From: Pedomonas mirosovicensis
GTDB taxonomy: Bacteria; Pseudomonadota; Alphaproteobacteria; Sphingomonadales; Sphingomonadaceae
Direction: 5' to 3'
Length of the DNA stretch: 64,000 nucleotides
Assembly: GCF_022569295.1 (NCBI RefSeq)
Contig: NZ_JAKFIA010000001.1
Location: 449,001-513,000, forward strand
Numbering within the stretch: position 1 is the first letter of the stretch; each line of letters begins with the position of its first letter. The notes below the pieces were generated by a model, which saw only the letters and a list, made by a program, of their open reading frames with translations, was not told where the DNA came from and searched no databases. A program made the position numbers and the translations under genes. Below are positions 7,274 through 59,647 of the stretch, piece after piece.

Positions 7274-7276
7274 CAA

Positions 7277-7422
7277 AAAGGGGGGTCTTGGATCCCCTTT
7301 AGATCCCCCTTCGCTTTGACGGGCCGTGCCTGTGACTTCGCTTGGGGGACTGACTGAACGGTTGATGCAGGGTGCGGCCCGATAAAAATTAGGGAGTGCA
7401 GAGGGTCCGAGACCCTCTGCAA
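7277..7422 (+). repeat. Paired-hairpin dispersed repeat, copy 1
   Basis: Left end: a GGGGGG/CCCC hairpin immediately after the mnmE stop. Right end: a perfect hairpin GCAGAGGGTC...GACCCTCTGC preceded by GGGAGT (7392-7422). Between them is a GC-rich interior containing GGGCCGTG and GTGCGGCCC. The same arrangement recurs at about 11.9, 20.4, 44.3 and 50.1 kb. It may act as the mnmE terminator. Confidence 0.7.
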
Positions 7423-7430
7423 AGAAAAAA

Positions 7431-11865: not shown

Positions 11866-11892
11866 TCCCCGGTTGTTTTTTAGGTTTTGGTT

Positions 11893-12060
11893 TTTGCAGG
11901 GGGGCTATAGCCCCCTGCACCCCCTAACGTTTTTCGGGCCGCGTCCGTTTATTTGAGGATGCGCCTCTTTCCCTCTCTGATCGATAGGGACGCACCTGGT
12001 CGGTCCGTTGCACATCCATGAAATGATAGGGAGTGCAGAGGGTCTGCGACCCTCTGCAAT
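11893..12060. repeat. Paired-hairpin dispersed repeat, copy 2
   Basis: Left hairpin TGCAGGGGGGC...GCCCCCTGCA followed by CCCC, then TTTTTCGGGCCG. Right hairpin is GGGAGTGCAGAGGGTC...GACCCTCTGCA. It lies between the convergent parB and GNAT genes and could terminate both. Confidence 0.75.
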
Positions 12061-12120
12061 GAGAAAACTCTGCAAAAAGCCCGCTTAAAGGGCCGTGTTT
12101 CCCTGCGATCCTAATTTCAA

Positions 12121-20402: not shown

Positions 20403-20413
20403 ATTTTGGAATT

Positions 20414-20633
20414 TTCGCAGGGGTCGCAGGCCCCTGCACCCCGTTCGTTTTCAGGGCCGTGTACGGGATAACCGGTGCGGCCTTGTCTCTGTTGGGGTGG
20501 ATTGGGCCGCACCTGTTGAAAGCGCGCACGGATGACGCGGCCCTGAAGAACTCAACTCCATCAGGCACGACAGCAAACACAGACGCGGCCGATAAAATGA
20601 ATGGGAGTGCAGAGGGTCCAAGACCCTCTGCAA
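20414..20633. repeat. Paired-hairpin dispersed repeat, copy 3
   Basis: Left hairpin GCAGGGGTC...GGCCCCTGC followed by ACCCC and TTTTCAGGGCCGTG. Right hairpin GGGAGTGCAGAGGGTC...GACCCTCTGCA is nearly identical to those of copies 1 and 2. The interior holds further complementary GGGCCGCACC and GGTGCGGCC. It lies between convergent yggS and the L,D-transpeptidase gene. Confidence 0.78.
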
Positions 20634-20644
20634 GAACAGCGAAG

Positions 20645-41337: not shown

Positions 41338-41353
41338 GCGGGCGGGCAATCTT

Positions 41354-41379
41354 CGCAGGGGGTTCTCAAGCCCCCTGCG
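41354..41379. repeat. Dispersed repeat, single-ended copy 4
   Basis: CGCAGGGGG...CCCCCTGCG followed by TCTTTCGGGCCGTG, matching the left half of copies 2 and 3. It begins 17 bases after the glutamate dehydrogenase stop. No right-hand hairpin is found before mdh. Probable terminator. Confidence 0.65.
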
Positions 41380-41542
41380 CCTCCACTCGTCTTTCGGGCC
41401 GTGTCCTTCATGTAAGGGCGCGGCCCTTTCGTTTGCGGCGTCGTGTCAGGCGGCCGGCTGCAAATGCCAGCGGCAAGCCGCCGCCTTGGAAACAGCAGAA
41501 CTTCGGCGATCGAACCACACGAGGGTGCAATGTGGATATCTC

Positions 41543-44210: not shown

Positions 44211-44284
44211 AAGGCACCTCCTGCCCCGCCTCTATAGGGAGATGTGGCCGGAAGATAGAGGCTTCTGGATAGTTTTTTGGTTTC

Positions 44285-44446
44285 TTGCAGGGGTCTCGGA
44301 CCCCTGCACCCCCTTTGTTTTTCAGGACGTGCGCGGGAACGACCGGGTGCGCCCCATTGAATACGCATAAGAAAAGGGCCGCACTCTTTATGAGGGACAC
44401 GGCCCTTTGAGTCGAATGGGGTGCAAGGGACTGAGTCCCCTGCAAA
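44285..44446. repeat. Paired-hairpin dispersed repeat, copy 5
   Basis: Left hairpin TTGCAGGGGTC...GACCCCTGCA followed by CCCC and TTTTTCAGGACGTG. Right hairpin GGGGTGCAAGGGACTGAGTCCCCTGCAA. A further internal hairpin AGGGCCGC/GGCCCTTT lies between. Between lysE-type and purH genes; may terminate transcription entering from the purH side. Confidence 0.75.
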
Positions 44447-44524
44447 AAAGTAAATAAAAACAAACAAAAAGGGCGGAGCCATGAAGGCCCCGCCCCTCTG
44501 TCGGTGCGAACAATCCTGCGCGGA

Positions 44525-49946: not shown

Positions 49947-50049
49947 CCGGGGCGTTTAGCGCATCAAGCCAAAAGCCGTAAGCCGGTTTTCAGGCAAACC
50001 AGCCATGTGACGCGATGAGTGGGAGCGGGTTGGGTGAGTTTCTTGGTTT

Positions 50050-50245
50050 TTGCAGGGGTCTTGGACCCCTGCACCCCATTTTTTTGTGGCTGTGTTTCGG
50101 GTGCTTGCTGGATTTAAGGAATGAAAGGGACGCACCCGGTCTGGTCCCATGCGCGGCCCTGTTGCTGAAATTCCAGAATGCGCGCGGGTATCTACGCGCA
50201 CGTCCCGATCAAACGAATGGGGGCGCGGGGGACAAGTCCCCCGCA
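50050..50245. repeat. Paired-hairpin dispersed repeat, copy 6
   Basis: Left hairpin TGCAGGGGTC...GACCCCTGCA with CCCC and TTTTTTTGTGG after it. Right hairpin is GCGGGGGAC...GTCCCCCGC. An extra ATGCGCGCGGG/CGCGCAC hairpin lies inside near 50180-50200. It lies between rsmB and htpX, just beyond the htpX stop codon. Confidence 0.75.
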
Positions 50246-50255
50246 TAAAGCCCCA

Positions 50256-51685: not shown

Positions 51686-52924
51686 TCAGATATACCGCCG
51701 GCGGGGCCGCAGCCCGAGGAAGAGGAGGCCGATCCCCATGAGGCCGACCGTGGCCGGAGCCGAGACCAGGGCCGGATCGGAGCCTGGGTTCGGGTCAGGG
51801 CCGTTCGAGTTGTGGATAAGCTCGCTCAGCCAGTCATGGAAGAAGGCGACGTTGGTATCGCCGGAAATCTCCCCGAAGGTGGAATTCAGTTCGCAATCGA
51901 TATCCGGGGAATTGACGATCTCCGGGTTAAAGGCCCCAGCGGTGTTGTAAGGATTGCTGGGGTCTGGATTGAGAATGCCGTCGCAGTATTCGTCCTCCAG
52001 CGTGAAGCCGAAGGAGTGAACGCCGGCGAGCAGCCCGTCGATGAACGCGCCGCCGCCTGAGTCCCCGGCATCGATCAGCACTTCATCCAGGCGGAGCCCG
52101 CGGCCCTGGAACCGGTCGGTCACCGGCTCCACGAAGATCGAGCCGTCGCTGAGGATGGTCTCGTCCGTACTGGCCCACCAGGGGAGCGCGTTGTGCGCCC
52201 TGGTGCCGTCGTCAAAGTCGTAGATCAGCTGGGCGCCCTCCAGCCCGATGCCGAGCAGGCCTGTGAGATCGGTTTCGTAGAAGTTCTTGCCGATGCGGCC
52301 GTTCTCCAGATTGTCGAGGGAGAACTCCGTTACCGAGCCGTCGCCGTTGCCGGTGGTGCCGTAGCCGATGTGGGTGGCGACCTGTCCGATGGCGTTGCCG
52401 TCATAGAGGCCGTAGGTGCGGGTGCCGGCGGGCGCAGGCGCATTGAGCGTCAGCACCGCGATATCACCGGCGGCAAAGGCTCCCTGCATGGGAAAACCCA
52501 CGGTCTCATCGAAATAGAGGGGATGGATGTTAATGTTGGTGGCGGCGCGGGCCGGGCCGGAGAGGCCGCCGAAGTGGACCTCCGTCTGCCCGGCGATGCC
52601 GAAGTCCGGGCTGCGCGGGTCGTGAAAGTCCACGCAATGGGCCGCGGTTACGATCTGGGTCGGTGAGACCACCGTGCCGGTGCAGAAGAAGGCGCTGTCG
52701 GAATCGACAAGCGGCGAACGTATGACCACGGTGCCGCTGCGCTGCGCTGCGCTGGGCAGGTAGCGGGGGTCCCGATAGTCGCCCGCCGTCTTCAGTACTT
52801 GGCGGGCCTTCACGGCCGAGAGAGGTATGGCCTCGGCCGTGGTGGGCGCAATAGCCGAAAGTCCAGGAAAGATCAGCGCACAAAGACTCAGGCTGACATA
52901 AAGAGATGGTTGAAACCTGATCAT
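51686..52924 (-). CDS. Secreted trypsin-like serine protease with PEP-CTERM-type tail (copy A)
   Basis: 412 residues: signal peptide (LSLCALIFPGLSAIA), a short propeptide, and a trypsin-type domain with catalytic His in VTAAHC near residue 97, Asp in GDIAVLTL near residue 153 and Ser in GDSGGGAF near residue 289. The C-terminus has the sorting-tag layout: APATVGLMGIGLLFLGL hydrophobic span then Arg-rich RPRRRY, following a VSAPA variant of the PEP motif. It is paralogous to the gene at 53269-54471. No exosortase gene is in the window. Confidence 0.85.
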   Translation of the reverse strand: MIRFQPSLYVSLSLCALIFPGLSAIAPTTAEAIPLSAVKARQVLKTAGDYRDPRYLPSAAQRSGTVVIRSPLVDSDSAFFCTGTVVSPTQIVTAAHCVDFHDPRSPDFGIAGQTEVHFGGLSGPARAATNINIHPLYFDETVGFPMQGAFAAGDIAVLTLNAPAPAGTRTYGLYDGNAIGQVATHIGYGTTGNGDGSVTEFSLDNLENGRIGKNFYETDLTGLLGIGLEGAQLIYDFDDGTRAHNALPWWASTDETILSDGSIFVEPVTDRFQGRGLRLDEVLIDAGDSGGGAFIDGLLAGVHSFGFTLEDEYCDGILNPDPSNPYNTAGAFNPEIVNSPDIDCELNSTFGEISGDTNVAFFHDWLSELIHNSNGPDPNPGSDPALVSAPATVGLMGIGLLFLGLRPRRRYI

Positions 52925-53268: not shown

Positions 53269-54471
53269 TCAGGCGCGGCGACGGCGGCCCAAGCCAAGGG
53301 CGGCGAGACCGAAACCGAACAGGCCGAGCGTGGCCGGCGCCGGCACTTCCGTTGCCAGGTCGAGGCGCTGCATCAGCCAGTCGTAGAAGAAGGCGATGCT
53401 GGTGTCGCCGGCGATCTCGCCGAAAGTGGAGTCGTTGGCGCAGGTCACGTCCGACGGGTTGGAGATTTCCGGATTCCAGTCCCCGGTCGTGTCGTACGGA
53501 TCGTCGGGGTTCGGGTTGAGGATGCCATCGCAATACTCACCCGCCAGCGTCACGCCGAAGGAGTGGACGCCCGCCAGCAGGTCGTCGATGAATGAGCCGC
53601 CGCCGGAATCGCCACCATCGATGAGAACTTCATCAAGGCCGAGGCCGAGATCTGGGAAGAGGTCTTCCGGAATGACAATCTCGATCGAGCCGTCCGGATT
53701 GAGGGAGGCAAACGGGCTGGCCCACCATGCCATGGCATTGTGCTCCGGCGTGCCATCGTCGAAGTCATAGAGCAGGTGCGCCCCATCGAGGCCGACGCCG
53801 AACAGGCTCGCCAGATCGCTTTCATAAAGGTTCTGGCCGATGCGGCCGTTGGTCAGGCTGTCGAGGCCCAGGTTCTCGCCCGTGCCGTCGCCGTTGCCGG
53901 TGGTGCCGTAGCTGATGTGGGTGGAAACCTTGCCGATGGCATCGCCGCCGTAAAGACCATAGATCTTGGTGCCCGCCGGCACCGGCTCGCTCAGCGTGAT
54001 GATCGCGATATCGCCGGTTGCGAACGCGCCTTGTCCGGGCGAGCCGACGATCGGATCGAAATAGAGCGGGTGGATTTCATAGCTGGCGGAGGCGATCGGC
54101 GAGCTGCCGCGGCCACCAAGGTAAACCTGGGTCGTGCCGGTGGTGCCGTATTCGGGGCTGCGCGGATCATGGGTATCGACGCAGTGGGCGGCGGTGACGA
54201 TCTGGGTCGGCGAGACCACCGTGCCCGAGCAGACGTAGGACGAAGGCGAGTTGTTGATTGGCGTCATCAGCAGGGCGGTGCCGTTGCGCTGCTCTGAGCT
54301 GGGGAAATACCGCGGATCAAGATAGTTGCCCGTCGTCTTCAGAAGCGGGCGGGCCTGGGCGGCGGAAAGCGGAACCGCGTTGGCCTCGGACGACATGAAC
54401 ACCGTGCTGCCCGCCAGGGCAACAACGCCAACGCTTACGCCAACGCAAAGGGAAGATAGAAATTTCTTCAT
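53269..54471 (-). CDS. Secreted trypsin-like serine protease with PEP-CTERM-type tail (copy B)
   Basis: 400 residues with signal peptide (VGVSVGVVALAGSTVFMSSE), catalytic His in VTAAHC near residue 96, Asp in GDIAIITL near residue 154 and Ser in GDSGGGSF near residue 287. The tail VPAPATLGLFGFGLAALGLG plus RRRR is a classical PEP-CTERM-like signal. Copy A shares the order of motifs and long matching stretches (HCVD-HDPRSP, YGTTGNGDG, FDDGT, EYCDGILNP), so the pair is a tandem duplication. Each copy has its own leader hairpin and upstream element. Confidence 0.87.
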   Translation of the reverse strand: MKKFLSSLCVGVSVGVVALAGSTVFMSSEANAVPLSAAQARPLLKTTGNYLDPRYFPSSEQRNGTALLMTPINNSPSSYVCSGTVVSPTQIVTAAHCVDTHDPRSPEYGTTGTTQVYLGGRGSSPIASASYEIHPLYFDPIVGSPGQGAFATGDIAIITLSEPVPAGTKIYGLYGGDAIGKVSTHISYGTTGNGDGTGENLGLDSLTNGRIGQNLYESDLASLFGVGLDGAHLLYDFDDGTPEHNAMAWWASPFASLNPDGSIEIVIPEDLFPDLGLGLDEVLIDGGDSGGGSFIDDLLAGVHSFGVTLAGEYCDGILNPNPDDPYDTTGDWNPEISNPSDVTCANDSTFGEIAGDTSIAFFYDWLMQRLDLATEVPAPATLGLFGFGLAALGLGRRRRA

Positions 54472-54624
54472 AATAACCCCCCTGCCGTATCGGGATCAGG
54501 CAGGCGGTTCGCACCACCTGCCGGAGCCGCGCCAATGCGGCTCCCTACAGCCGGAGATTCAAGATTCGCGCCAAGCTTTAAGCTCTTAGAATTACAGTTA
54601 AATTAAAATTAACCGATACGTACC

Positions 54625-54641
54625 TGTAAATAATCTCGACG
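54625..54641 (-). promoter_or_regulatory. Conserved upstream element of protease copy B
   Basis: TGTAAATAATCTCGACG, one base different from the copy A element. On the reverse strand TTTACA and TTTAAT lie 17 bases apart here, giving a plausible promoter for copy B. Confidence 0.45.
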
Positions 54642-54829
54642 TTTGTTTCGCTTTTGGCGCATTTCGTCTCGTCTCTGAAACGGGTTATCTTGCTATCGAA
54701 AATAAAGCGTATATATGCGGAATATGCCGCTGACGCGCTTTGTGCCCGTATCTCGGCGGCGTTTCGGGTAACTGTTTTCAACTGTCGGAGGATCAGGACA
54801 GGTTATCTTCAATCCTGCAGAGGGGGCCC

Positions 54830-54963
54830 GTGCGCGGAGGCGCACACGTAAAAGTTCGTGCGCGGAGGCGCACATGCAAAAGTTCGCGCGCGGAGGCGCA
54901 CAAGCAAAAGTTCGTGCGCGGAGGCGCACAAGCAAAAGCTCATGCGCGGAGGCGTACAGGCAG
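54830..54963. repeat. 28-bp tandem hairpin array, about 4.8 copies
   Basis: Five consecutive units start at 54830, 54858, 54886, 54914 and 54942. Each is a 16-base hairpin, GTGCGC-GGAG-GCGCAC, followed by a 12-base A-rich linker (AAGCAAAAGTTC type). Changes are few: unit 3 begins GC, unit 5 has AT/GTAC ends. The 28-base period is not a multiple of three, so no repeat protein is encoded. Linkers are alike, so it is not a CRISPR array. A possible forward promoter TTGCTA-N16-TATATG lies at 54690-54717. Confidence 0.88.
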
Positions 54964-55098
54964 ATAGAAGGCATCCTCTGCGCTCCCGCTCTTCTTGTCG
55001 GGCCGCGCACGGCAGGATCGCTTGCGCCTTAATCAAGGCCTCCGCGCCGGGAGGGGATCTGCGCTCCCCTTGGCAAGCCCGTATGGGGACAAACCGCC

Positions 55099-57042
55099 CT
55101 AGCTGACTGCCTGCTGCCGTCCGGCAACCAACGCCTCGACGACGCTGGGGTCCGCCAGGGTCGAGGTATCGCCAAGGGCATGAATTTCATTCTCGGCGAT
55201 CTTTCGCAGGATGCGGCGCATGATCTTGCCCGAGCGGGTCTTGGGCAGGGCGGGGGTGAACTGGATGCGATCGGGCACGGCGATGGCGCCGATCTCCTCC
55301 CGCACGTAGGTTTTCAGTTCAGCCAGCAGGGCGTCGGACGGCTCGACATGCGCCACCAAGGTCACGTAGGCGTAGATGCCTTGGCCCTTGATGTCGTGCG
55401 GGAAGCCGACCACCGCTGCCTCCGCCACGTCCGGGTGGGCAACGAGCGCGGATTCGATTTCCGCCGTGCCCATGCGGTGGCCGGAGACGTTGAGCACGTC
55501 ATCGACGCGGCCGGTGACCCAGTAGTAGCCGTCCTCATCGCGGCGGCAGCCGTCCCCGGTGAAGTAAACGCCCTTGTAGGTGCTGAAATAGGTCTGCTCG
55601 AAGCGGGCATGGTCGCCGTAGACCGTCCGCATCTGGCCGGGCCAGCTGTCGGTGATGATGAGGTTGCCTTCGCCCGCGCCCTTCAGCACCTTGCCTTCGC
55701 CGTCCACCAGCGCAGGTTGCACGCCGAAGAAGGGCATGCAGGCCGAGCCCGGCTTCAGCGCCATGGCGCCCGGCAGGGGCGCGATCATGGTGGCGCCGGT
55801 TTCGGTCTGCCACCAGGTGTCGACAATGGGCAGTTTCCCGTCGCCCACCACCCGGTGATACCACAGCCAGGCCTCGGGATTGATGGGCTCGCCCACGGTG
55901 CCGAGCAGGCGCAGCGACTTGCGGCTGTGCTTCTTCACTGGCGCGTCGCCCTCGCGCATCAGGGCGCGGATGGCGGTGGGCGCGGTGTAGAAGATGTTCA
56001 CGCCGTGCTTGTCCACCACCTGCCAGAAGCGGTCGCACGCCGGGTAGTTGGGCACGCCCTCGAACATCAGCGTGGTCGCGCCGTTGGCGAGCGGGCCATA
56101 GACCACATAGCTGTGTCCGGTCACCCAGCCCACGTCCGCCGTGCACCAGAAGATCTCGCCTTCCTTGTAGTCGAACACGTAGGAATGGGTCATGGCCGCC
56201 CACAGCAGGTAGCCGCCGGTGGTGTGCAGCACGCCCTTCGGCTTGCCGGTGGAGCCGGAGGTGTAGAGGATGAACAAAGGGTCTTCCGCGTTCATCGGCT
56301 CGGGCTCGCAGATGGCGGGCACGGTCTCGGCAATGTCGTGAAACCAGCGGTCCCGCGCCGTATTCCAATGCACATGGCCGCCCGTGCGGCGCACCACCAG
56401 CACGTTCCTTACCTGCGGGCAGTGCTCCAGCGCCTTGTCCACATTGGCCTTGAGCGGGATGACCTTGCCGCCGCGCACGCCTTCGTCCGCCGTGATGACG
56501 AGATGGGAGTCGCAATCCTGAATGCGCCCGGCCAGCGCCTCGGGCGAGAAGCCGCCGAACACCACCGAGTGGATGGCGCCGATCCGCGCGCAGGCCAGCA
56601 TGGCGTAGGCGGCCTCGGGGATCATGGGCATGTAGATCGTCACCCGGTCGCCCTTCTTCACCCCCAGCTCGCGGATGACATTGGCCATGCGGCACACGTC
56701 GTCGTGCAGCTGCTGGTAGGTGATCTTGCGCTCCTCGGACGGGTTGTCCCCTTCCCACAGGATGGCAATATCGTTCGCCTTGCGCGGCAGGTGCCGGTCG
56801 ATGCAGTTGGCGCTGACATTGAGCACGCCGTCCTCGAACCACTTGATGGAGACATCCGGCGCGAACCGCGTGTTCTTGATCTTGGCCGGGGGCTTCACCC
56901 AGGTGAGCATACGGGCCTGCTCGGCCCAGAAGCCCTCAGGGTCCTCGATGGAGCGGCGGTACATCTCTTCATACTGTTCCGCCGTGCAGCGCGTCTGCGC
57001 CGCAACCCAATCCGGCACCGGAAACACTTGCGACTCACTCAT
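55099..57042 (-). CDS. acs: Acetyl-CoA synthetase
   Basis: Activates acetate to acetyl-CoA through acetyl-AMP. From ATG 57042 (GGGGGAGAG upstream) it has 647 residues, the usual length. AMP-binding motif [20 protein letters not shown] near residue 262, adenylate-forming WWQTETG near residue 412, [19 protein letters not shown] near residue 521 and the acetylatable Lys in TRSGKIMRR near residue 606. It belongs functionally with aceA/aceB downstream. A 37-residue longer frame is rejected. Confidence 0.97.
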
Positions 57043-57280
57043 CGGCTCTCCCCCATGCGGCTTGATCGAAGGCTGAAGGGCAACCCAGCACAATGTAGTC
57101 CGGAAAGTGATCTGGGCCCTCTGCTCCCACGCAAAAAAGCATATGCCGGCCATGCTTGACCCTTGCGCCCGCCAGAAGCTGCCGCCATGAGAAAACGGAT
57201 CGTTACCCCGCGAGGCGGTTTTCTCCCGGGTGGCGAGGGCCTTAAATTATTTTACCATAAGGTTTCCGGAGGCTCAAAAA

Positions 57281-59525: not shown

Positions 59526-59563
59526 CGGCCCCCCTCCTTTGTCTGCCGTCTTTCATTCTATTT

Positions 59564-59595
59564 CCTGCAGGAGGGCTTGTCCCCCCGTGCCCCCC
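59564..59595. repeat. Dispersed repeat, single-ended copy 7
   Basis: CCTGCAGGAGGG...CCCCCCGTGCCCC followed by TTTTTTGGGAAGCGTGTCCGG, a diverged left half. It lies between rraA and aceA, about 40 bases upstream of the rraA start. No right-hand hairpin is visible. Confidence 0.5.
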
Positions 59596-59647
59596 TCTTT
59601 TTTGGGAAGCGTGTCCGGAACCACACGCATGGCCGGTGGCGAATAGG

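Follow-up and report, generated by a model that had tools for sequence, protein, structure and literature searches.

Introduction

Two kinds of repeat come close to the element described here: REP/BIME-like palindromes at the 3' ends of genes, and repeats capable of forming triplexes. In E. coli, REPs are presented in the cited sections of PMC5082802 as a barrier to exonucleases and as sites of transcription termination. The same sections describe Br-REP1 and Br-REP2 of Bradyrhizobium, REP/BIME elements which resemble our family in being short extragenic palindromes with tens to hundreds of copies, in their position in 3' UTRs, among them the 3' UTRs with which two convergent genes overlap, in their grouped stem-loops and in an abundance that differs strongly between relatives (PMC5082802). 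As for the second kind, purine-motif triplexes can arrest polymerases, and instability is reported around comparable intrastrand-triplex repeats (PMC4666352). PIT/BoxC elements blocked DNA polymerase in vitro, but according to the cited sections of PMC4666352 they had neither terminator activity nor an effect in vivo.

The starting point of this work was a tandem array of short hairpins in a stretch of 64,000 nucleotides from Pedomonas mirosovicensis, which we refer to as the window. Its layout recalls two classes of regulatory RNA. CsrB/RsmZ-type sponge RNAs consist of repeated hairpins with GGA in their loops, and the alphaproteobacterial sRNAs of the CcsR/cuckoo type have CUCC-type loops. 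We propose instead that the array is probably the inner hairpin of one member of a high-copy REP/BIME-like family, expanded in tandem to five units, with no dedicated role for the array itself.

The array between acs and a protease gene

Tandem Repeats Finder places one such array in the window at 54829-54962 (period 28, 4.8 copies, 91% matches, score 212), while the runner-up among its eight rows scores 72. The five 28-base units named in the preliminary description are indeed present, starting at 54830, 54858, 54886, 54914 and 54942. They had been called self-complementary units with GGAG loops, and all five loops are GGAG, but of the stems only three pair perfectly. On the + strand, unit 1 (GTGCGCGGAGGCGCAC, 54830-54845) is followed by the linker ACGTAAAAGTTC (54846-54857), unit 2 (54858-54873) by ATGCAAAAGTTC, unit 3 (GCGCGCGGAGGCGCAC, 54886-54901; stem GCGCGC/GCGCAC, one mismatch) by AAGCAAAAGTTC and unit 4 (54914-54929) by AAGCAAAAGCTC; unit 5 (54942-54957) has the degraded stem ATGCGC/GCGTAC. 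Because of the period of 28 the array is not coding, and because its linkers are alike, without unique spacers, it is not a CRISPR; on both points the first reading was correct.

The span of 54830-54963 given earlier does contain the array but is too small, as the outer arms GCAGAGG (54817-54823) and CCTCTGC (54975-54981) enclose it. The 5' outer arm of this host element, GCAGAGGG (54817-54824, +), is the arm found in the whole family and pairs with 54974-54981 in the predicted fold. Behind the 3' arm CCTCTGC follows the tail GCTCCC (54982-54987, +; ACTCCC in the family), which mirrors this arm as the mirror rule of the family described below would have it, and then the remainder of the tail (54988-55007, +), which ends in GGGCCGCG. 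The family model R1 (see below) matches here at 54942-55009 (26.5 bits, E 1.8e-6). Of four predicted folds, three (RNA +, DNA + and RNA -) show the outer arms paired, and DNA - does not. In the predicted RNA fold of the + strand only units 1 and 4 form hairpins of their own, whereas unit 2 is paired with unit 3, so that the string of five separate hairpins suggested earlier for this strand does not appear. Compared to shuffled sequences the array region does not stand out in its predicted DNA folding (z -0.69 and -1.69), and it does so moderately in its RNA folding (z -2.47 and -3.07).

The neighbouring genes, named from reading their translations, are those given before: acs at 55099-57153 (-) and a PEP-CTERM trypsin-like protease at 53269-54471 (-). 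According to our own ORF picker the upstream neighbour is divergent, with 358 nt between it and unit 1, and the end of acs is on the opposite strand. Therefore the element is not a sense 3'-UTR element at this place, and with no same-strand gene end just upstream it is atypical of its family. The near edge of the array lies about 136 nt beyond the acs stop, in the direction of acs.

Two side observations concern these genes. The protease has a tandem duplicate at 51686-52924 (-), also trypsin-like with a PEP-CTERM-type tail, with 57% identity over 410 columns, and this gene pair adjoins the array. A second acs copy, 72% identical, is found elsewhere in the genome (G000:C1:1754831-1756780, +), and the best full-length match of the window acs among 29 relatives (74%) comes from another family of the order. 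Neither the array nor a match to R1 was found around acs in these 29 relatives; other short tandem repeats occur there in five of them. A comparison of the array region with a phage collection gave no match, and at the gathering thresholds of Rfam the window and eight loci yielded only a tRNA.

The inner hairpin in the genome

The inner hairpin has the form GTGCGC-GNAG-GCGCAC. Further copies, for which a genome search had been advised, are numerous: the GGAG form GTGCGCGGAGGCGCAC, a 16-mer, occurs 24 times exactly in the 3.63-Mb genome, and the 16-mer extended by CC before and AA after (CCGTGCGCGGAGGCGCACAA) has 32 places at up to one mismatch. Since the reversed control pattern has none, the hairpin is present beyond chance. 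Allowing up to two mismatches to one 16-mer, followed by curation by eye, we obtained 46 loci, most of which sit in the apical loop of a larger palindrome. By a composition-preserving shuffle test the outer stem is significant at 22 of the 46, and the outer stems of the remaining loci were placed by eye.

The loops at these 46 loci read GGAG (30), GAAG (5), GCAG (5), GTAG (1) and five others once each. GGA is thus missing from 15 of them and CUCC, on the other strand, from 16. Counting one unit per locus (35 substitutions in total), the second loop base is not G in 11 loci, and every other position departs in zero to three (binomial 6e-6; 9e-5 corrected for 16 positions). The loop rule is C(GNAG)G. 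It is similar to d(cGNABg), a class of very stable DNA tetraloops, a likeness which we do not count as evidence. None of six forms of the inner hairpin was found printed in the open-licence literature.

More than one unit is present at only four of the 46 loci: two at C1:562993, two at C1:2544644, three at C1:623002 and five in the window. At C1:562993 the units have diverged, and both carry the identical paired stem change GTGCGT/ACGCAC. The linkers are similar inside each array and dissimilar between arrays, with the last linker of the window array as exception. This is the pattern expected from local duplication, and the more cautious of the earlier suggestions, an expanded repeat, perhaps a recent one, fits. 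We conclude that the window array is a five-fold local tandem expansion of the inner hairpin and not a stand-alone RNA gene.

Some inner hairpins (L017, L028, L040, G000:C1:86723) adjoin a palindrome of the type AAGGGGGTCT..AGACCCCCTT instead of the usual arms and form further mosaic subtypes.

The host palindrome family

The host palindrome, GCAGAGGG...CCCTCTGC-ACTCCC, belongs to a dispersed family of about 500 copies. In elements with an insert a T-rich stretch is followed by an arm (GCAGAGGG or GCAGGAGGG), CCCC and the inner hairpin; then come an AAAC-type linker, the complementary arm, either ACTCCC or ACCTCCC, and TTCGTTTTTCGGGCCGCG; the purine strand reads GGGAGTGCAGAGGGTC...GACCCTC. The palindrome without insert (3-nt loop) is commoner and has 43 places at up to three mismatches, compared to five for the control. 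Typical insert-less copies have a 7-nt loop (TCNNNGA) between 5-nt arms. The base element is a 10-bp hairpin with a mirror tail; a T tract precedes the hairpin and ACTCCC follows it.

The model R1 and the covariation test are based on alignment A4, for which 30 insert-less copies were fetched and 25 kept (L076, L077, L132, L138 and L139 were left out); these copies were found by an arm pattern with up to three mismatches, so that AGAGGG-type and well-paired copies are favoured. In this alignment 96.4% of the stem cells are paired and there are eight double-change cells, against 1.7 in shuffles. The covariation is confined to two of the ten stem pairs, and neither the number of such pairs nor of pair types is above that in shuffles (183 and 185 of 500).

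R1, which also catches some insert-bearing copies, has at least 74 matches in the genome, a floor, as all 74 scored candidates match. In 400 kb, sampled as twenty 20-kb stretches at fixed spacing, there are 57 full-length matches (E <=3.5e-4), which extrapolates to about 517 copies per genome (Poisson 95% 392-670). The family is spread unevenly, since no match is found in eight of these stretches (L266, L271, L272, L277, L281, L283, L284 and L285), both chromid stretches among them.

In the window itself there are 13 matches with E <2e-5, partial reverse-strand echoes set aside, and ten of these form five facing pairs. An insert-less member at 20582-20635 (-, 71.8 bits) faces 20413-20463 (+, 40.2 bits), and a second insert-less member at 7371-7424 (-, 69.4 bits) faces 7274-7330 (+, 24 bits). 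An insert-less member of the CCCCC class at 11892-11945 (+, 58 bits) faces 12009-12061 (-, 49.6 bits). The other two pairs are 44283-44333 (+, 49.3 bits) with 44396-44447 (-, 34.6 bits) and 50048-50096 (+, 38.5 bits) with 50197-50248 (-, 43.6 bits). A single member lies at 41351-41405 (+, 37.8 bits) and a weak one at 59563-59615 (+, 24.4 bits).

Among 77 relatives no strong R1 match was found; four marginal ones (E 0.001-0.009) in three genomes are taken as chance. This search scored up to 74 candidates per genome under stricter filters, which could miss weak relatives. The exact sequence GTGCGCGNAGGCGCACAAA is present in one of 289 genomes of the class, our own. As far as visible from relatives which all lie outside the genus, the family is private to the genus level or below.

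Placement at gene ends

The elements are extragenic, as REP/BIME elements are: 67 of the 74 R1 elements and 42 of the 46 inner-type elements lie outside called genes, and the overlaps of the other seven and four are perhaps errors of the gene picker. Of the non-genic R1 elements 58 of 67 follow a same-strand gene, at a median of 23 nt past the stop, and 50 of 67 lie between convergent genes. For the inner type, with the distance counted from a point 14 nt ahead of the inner hairpin, 36 of 42 follow a same-strand gene, likewise at a median of 23 nt, and 23 of 42 are between convergent genes. Among the gene junctions of the sampled 400 kb and the window that measure at least 80 nt, elements are present in 24 of the 42 convergent, 12 of the 86 tandem and none of the 38 divergent ones (chi-square p 2e-10); among shorter junctions the numbers are 0 of 19, 2 of 69 and 0 of 16. 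These contexts come from our own ORF picker, not from curated annotation, and 12 of 70 elements are not assignable to a junction.

All 27 pairs of neighbouring elements within 400 nt of each other (464 kb) consist of a + followed by a - copy, i.e. they are inverted, tail to tail. An inverted second copy within 300 nt downstream (score >=16) accompanies 36 of the 74 R1 elements, compared to two direct ones and none with mirror and complement controls; for the inner-type loci it is 13 of 46, compared to four direct ones. A palindromic consensus common to many copies per genome and the alternating orientation of neighbours are both features which the family has in common with REP/BIME elements.

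The mirrored tail

The tail of the element mirrors its 3' arm, in the forms CCCTC-TGCA-CTCCC, CCCTCC-TGCA-CCTCCC, CCCCC-TGCA-CCCCC and CCCC-TGCA-CCCC. Among 98 elements with a centre TGCA (97) or TGGCAA (1) and a matching 5' arm, 80 have a mirror within the first five positions, of 5 nt in 73 and of 4 nt in seven, and the full mirror is absent in 18. In 10,000 permutations of the tails the mean is 27 and the maximum 43, a test which overstates the significance as related copies are not independent. Divided by arm class, full mirrors are found in 39 of 41 CTCCC, 25 of 25 CCTCC, nine of 14 CCCCC and seven of 13 CCCC elements and in none of five with rarer arms; in the C-only classes the mirror is little informative, so that the weight rests on the two T-bearing classes.

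In 80 of 98 elements one strand carries a purine stretch, a pyrimidine stretch and a third one with a mirror match, the layout of ITxF/TMECO repeats. The geometry is that of repeats forming intrastrand triplexes; in the classes given in the cited part of PMC4666352 it is class III for this strand and class I for the other. The dimensions mostly fall outside the three stems of 6-15 nt and loops of 1-6 nt stated there for TMECO: an exact mirror of at least 6 nt is found in only 29 of 98 elements, and the loop between the 5-nt arms has 7 nt. We rejected a filing of the family as TMECO on these grounds.

Origin of the array and alternative explanations

We suggest that the palindrome together with its mirror tail, which is putatively triplex-capable, may stall DNA polymerase, and that slippage would then duplicate the inner hairpin locally. 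The array as such would then be left without a dedicated role. With less confidence we consider a function of the family at gene ends, where it might act passively, as a stable 3' hairpin for each converging transcript, like the REPs of E. coli, and/or as a structural block between convergent genes.

Among the alternatives, a mobile element of the MITE or REP/RAYT type, whose transposition would have produced the arrays, is unlikely, although the high copy number, the mosaic composition and the inverted pairs would suit it. The units of the arrays are local duplicates, and no Y1_Tnp (RAYT) gene was found in the genome (0 matches to PF01797, in a search which finds matches in five of 14 control genomes). 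We therefore call the family REP-like and not a RAYT-linked REP.

Quite improbable in our opinion is a more ambitious reading, in which the elements are a new class of bidirectional gene-end elements. Under transcription-driven supercoiling an intrastrand triplex between convergent genes would stop polymerases, with the C(GNAG)G hairpins as an adjustable apical module, the five-unit array as its extreme setting, and the same hairpin adopted by unrelated palindromes in other Alphaproteobacteria.

It is also doubtful, and to a considerable degree, that the array serves as a terminator-like string of hairpins for acs. Read on the - strand the units are hairpin-ACTTTTGC, two of them pass a terminator-like scan of that strand, and the region has four such sites compared to a shuffle mean of 1.3. 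However, the tract has only four T, two bases off the stem, and members elsewhere mostly have no T tract at this place but AAAC-type linkers. In the base element, the T tract comes before the hairpin. Because of this the base element is not a canonical intrinsic terminator, whose hairpin would, in sense direction, be followed immediately by a T tract; we find ACTCCC at this place.

An anti-Shine-Dalgarno RNA of the CcsR/cuckoo kind, as proposed earlier, would expose five CUCC loops on the - strand and act on ribosomes or mRNAs, and read-through from acs, whose stop is so near, would transcribe this strand. We regard it as very improbable, as CUCC is not conserved (the 16 loci mentioned above), the Rfam scan returned nothing but a tRNA, and the identity of the units is explained by local duplication as preferred here. 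The other RNA proposed earlier, a + strand sponge whose GGA loops would sequester CsrA/RsmA, shares repeated hairpins and GGA in some loops, all five in the window, with CsrB/RsmZ, but it is largely refuted: the 15 loops without GGA and the failure to find a CsrA family gene in the 97.94%-complete genome, with a model that finds matches in three of 14 control genomes, argue strongly against it as the role of the family, and the predicted RNA fold is not a series of separate hairpins, a sigma-70-type promoter match is absent from 54400-55150 (weak evidence in this group), and the host element has hundreds of dispersed copies. The array thus gives reason for caution, since a convincing sponge RNA layout can arise as a by-product of repeat expansion.

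Comparison with known systems

A scan of named genomes for the inner hairpin returned 26 stretches, many from Marinicaulis and Hyphomicrobiaceae; several look like chance, among them one from Lachnospiraceae and one (L097) apparently in coding sequence. Ten of these genomes have one to six copies of GCGCGNAGGCGCACAA each, some in short arrays, with none for the control, and R1 matches in none of the ten. We dropped the idea that the inner hairpin is nested in an outer stem in all genomes, as shuffles support this in four of 31 clusters elsewhere, compared to 22 of 46 of our own loci.

A similar array is found in Marinicaulis sp. OFTM65 (L103), where a tandem GCGCGAAGGCGCACAAAC core is repeated in six units with the same period of 28. 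It starts at about 7307, and has mostly AAACGRTAATACC as linkers and GGCGCC at both flanks. It is unlike ours in that R1 has no match and the flanking stem by itself is not significant (p 0.065). Either homology or convergence may account for the likeness to our inner hairpin. In Marinicaulis-type genomes (L085, L086, L088, L091 and L102) one or two units of the inner hairpin adjoin an incomplete copy of the 5' end of the gene that follows, by reading cysteine-desulfurase-like, which suggests duplication at the hairpin.

The sequence of our family differs from REP/BIME elements, and it adds the mirror in the tail, the pairing of copies tail to tail and, in some members, an inner hairpin which can be multiplied, with no RAYT found. 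A search of the open-licence literature with few terms did not find these three features combined.

With BoxC/PIT/TMECO, as the cited parts of PMC4666352 describe them, the family shares a strand on which purine and pyrimidine stretches are joined by a third, mirrored one, the richness in G/C, the many copies and the occurrence of some inverted pairs; instability is linked to BoxC-type repeats there. If the mirror rule holds, one genome would offer about 500 natural hairpins whose third strand apparently co-varies with the duplex, mainly at gene ends. With such a set one could test directly whether repeats capable of forming triplexes have a role at the ends of bacterial genes; BoxC/PIT gave no evidence of it. 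Our family is strongly biased to gene ends, whereas the cited part of PMC4666352 gives no significant correlation with gene orientation for BoxC. Its mirror is mostly 5-6 nt instead of 9 nt long (PMC4666352, cited part), its hairpin extends past the mirror, and its loop 2 is TGCA. In our family the triplex is only putative, and loop 1 can host inserted hairpins.
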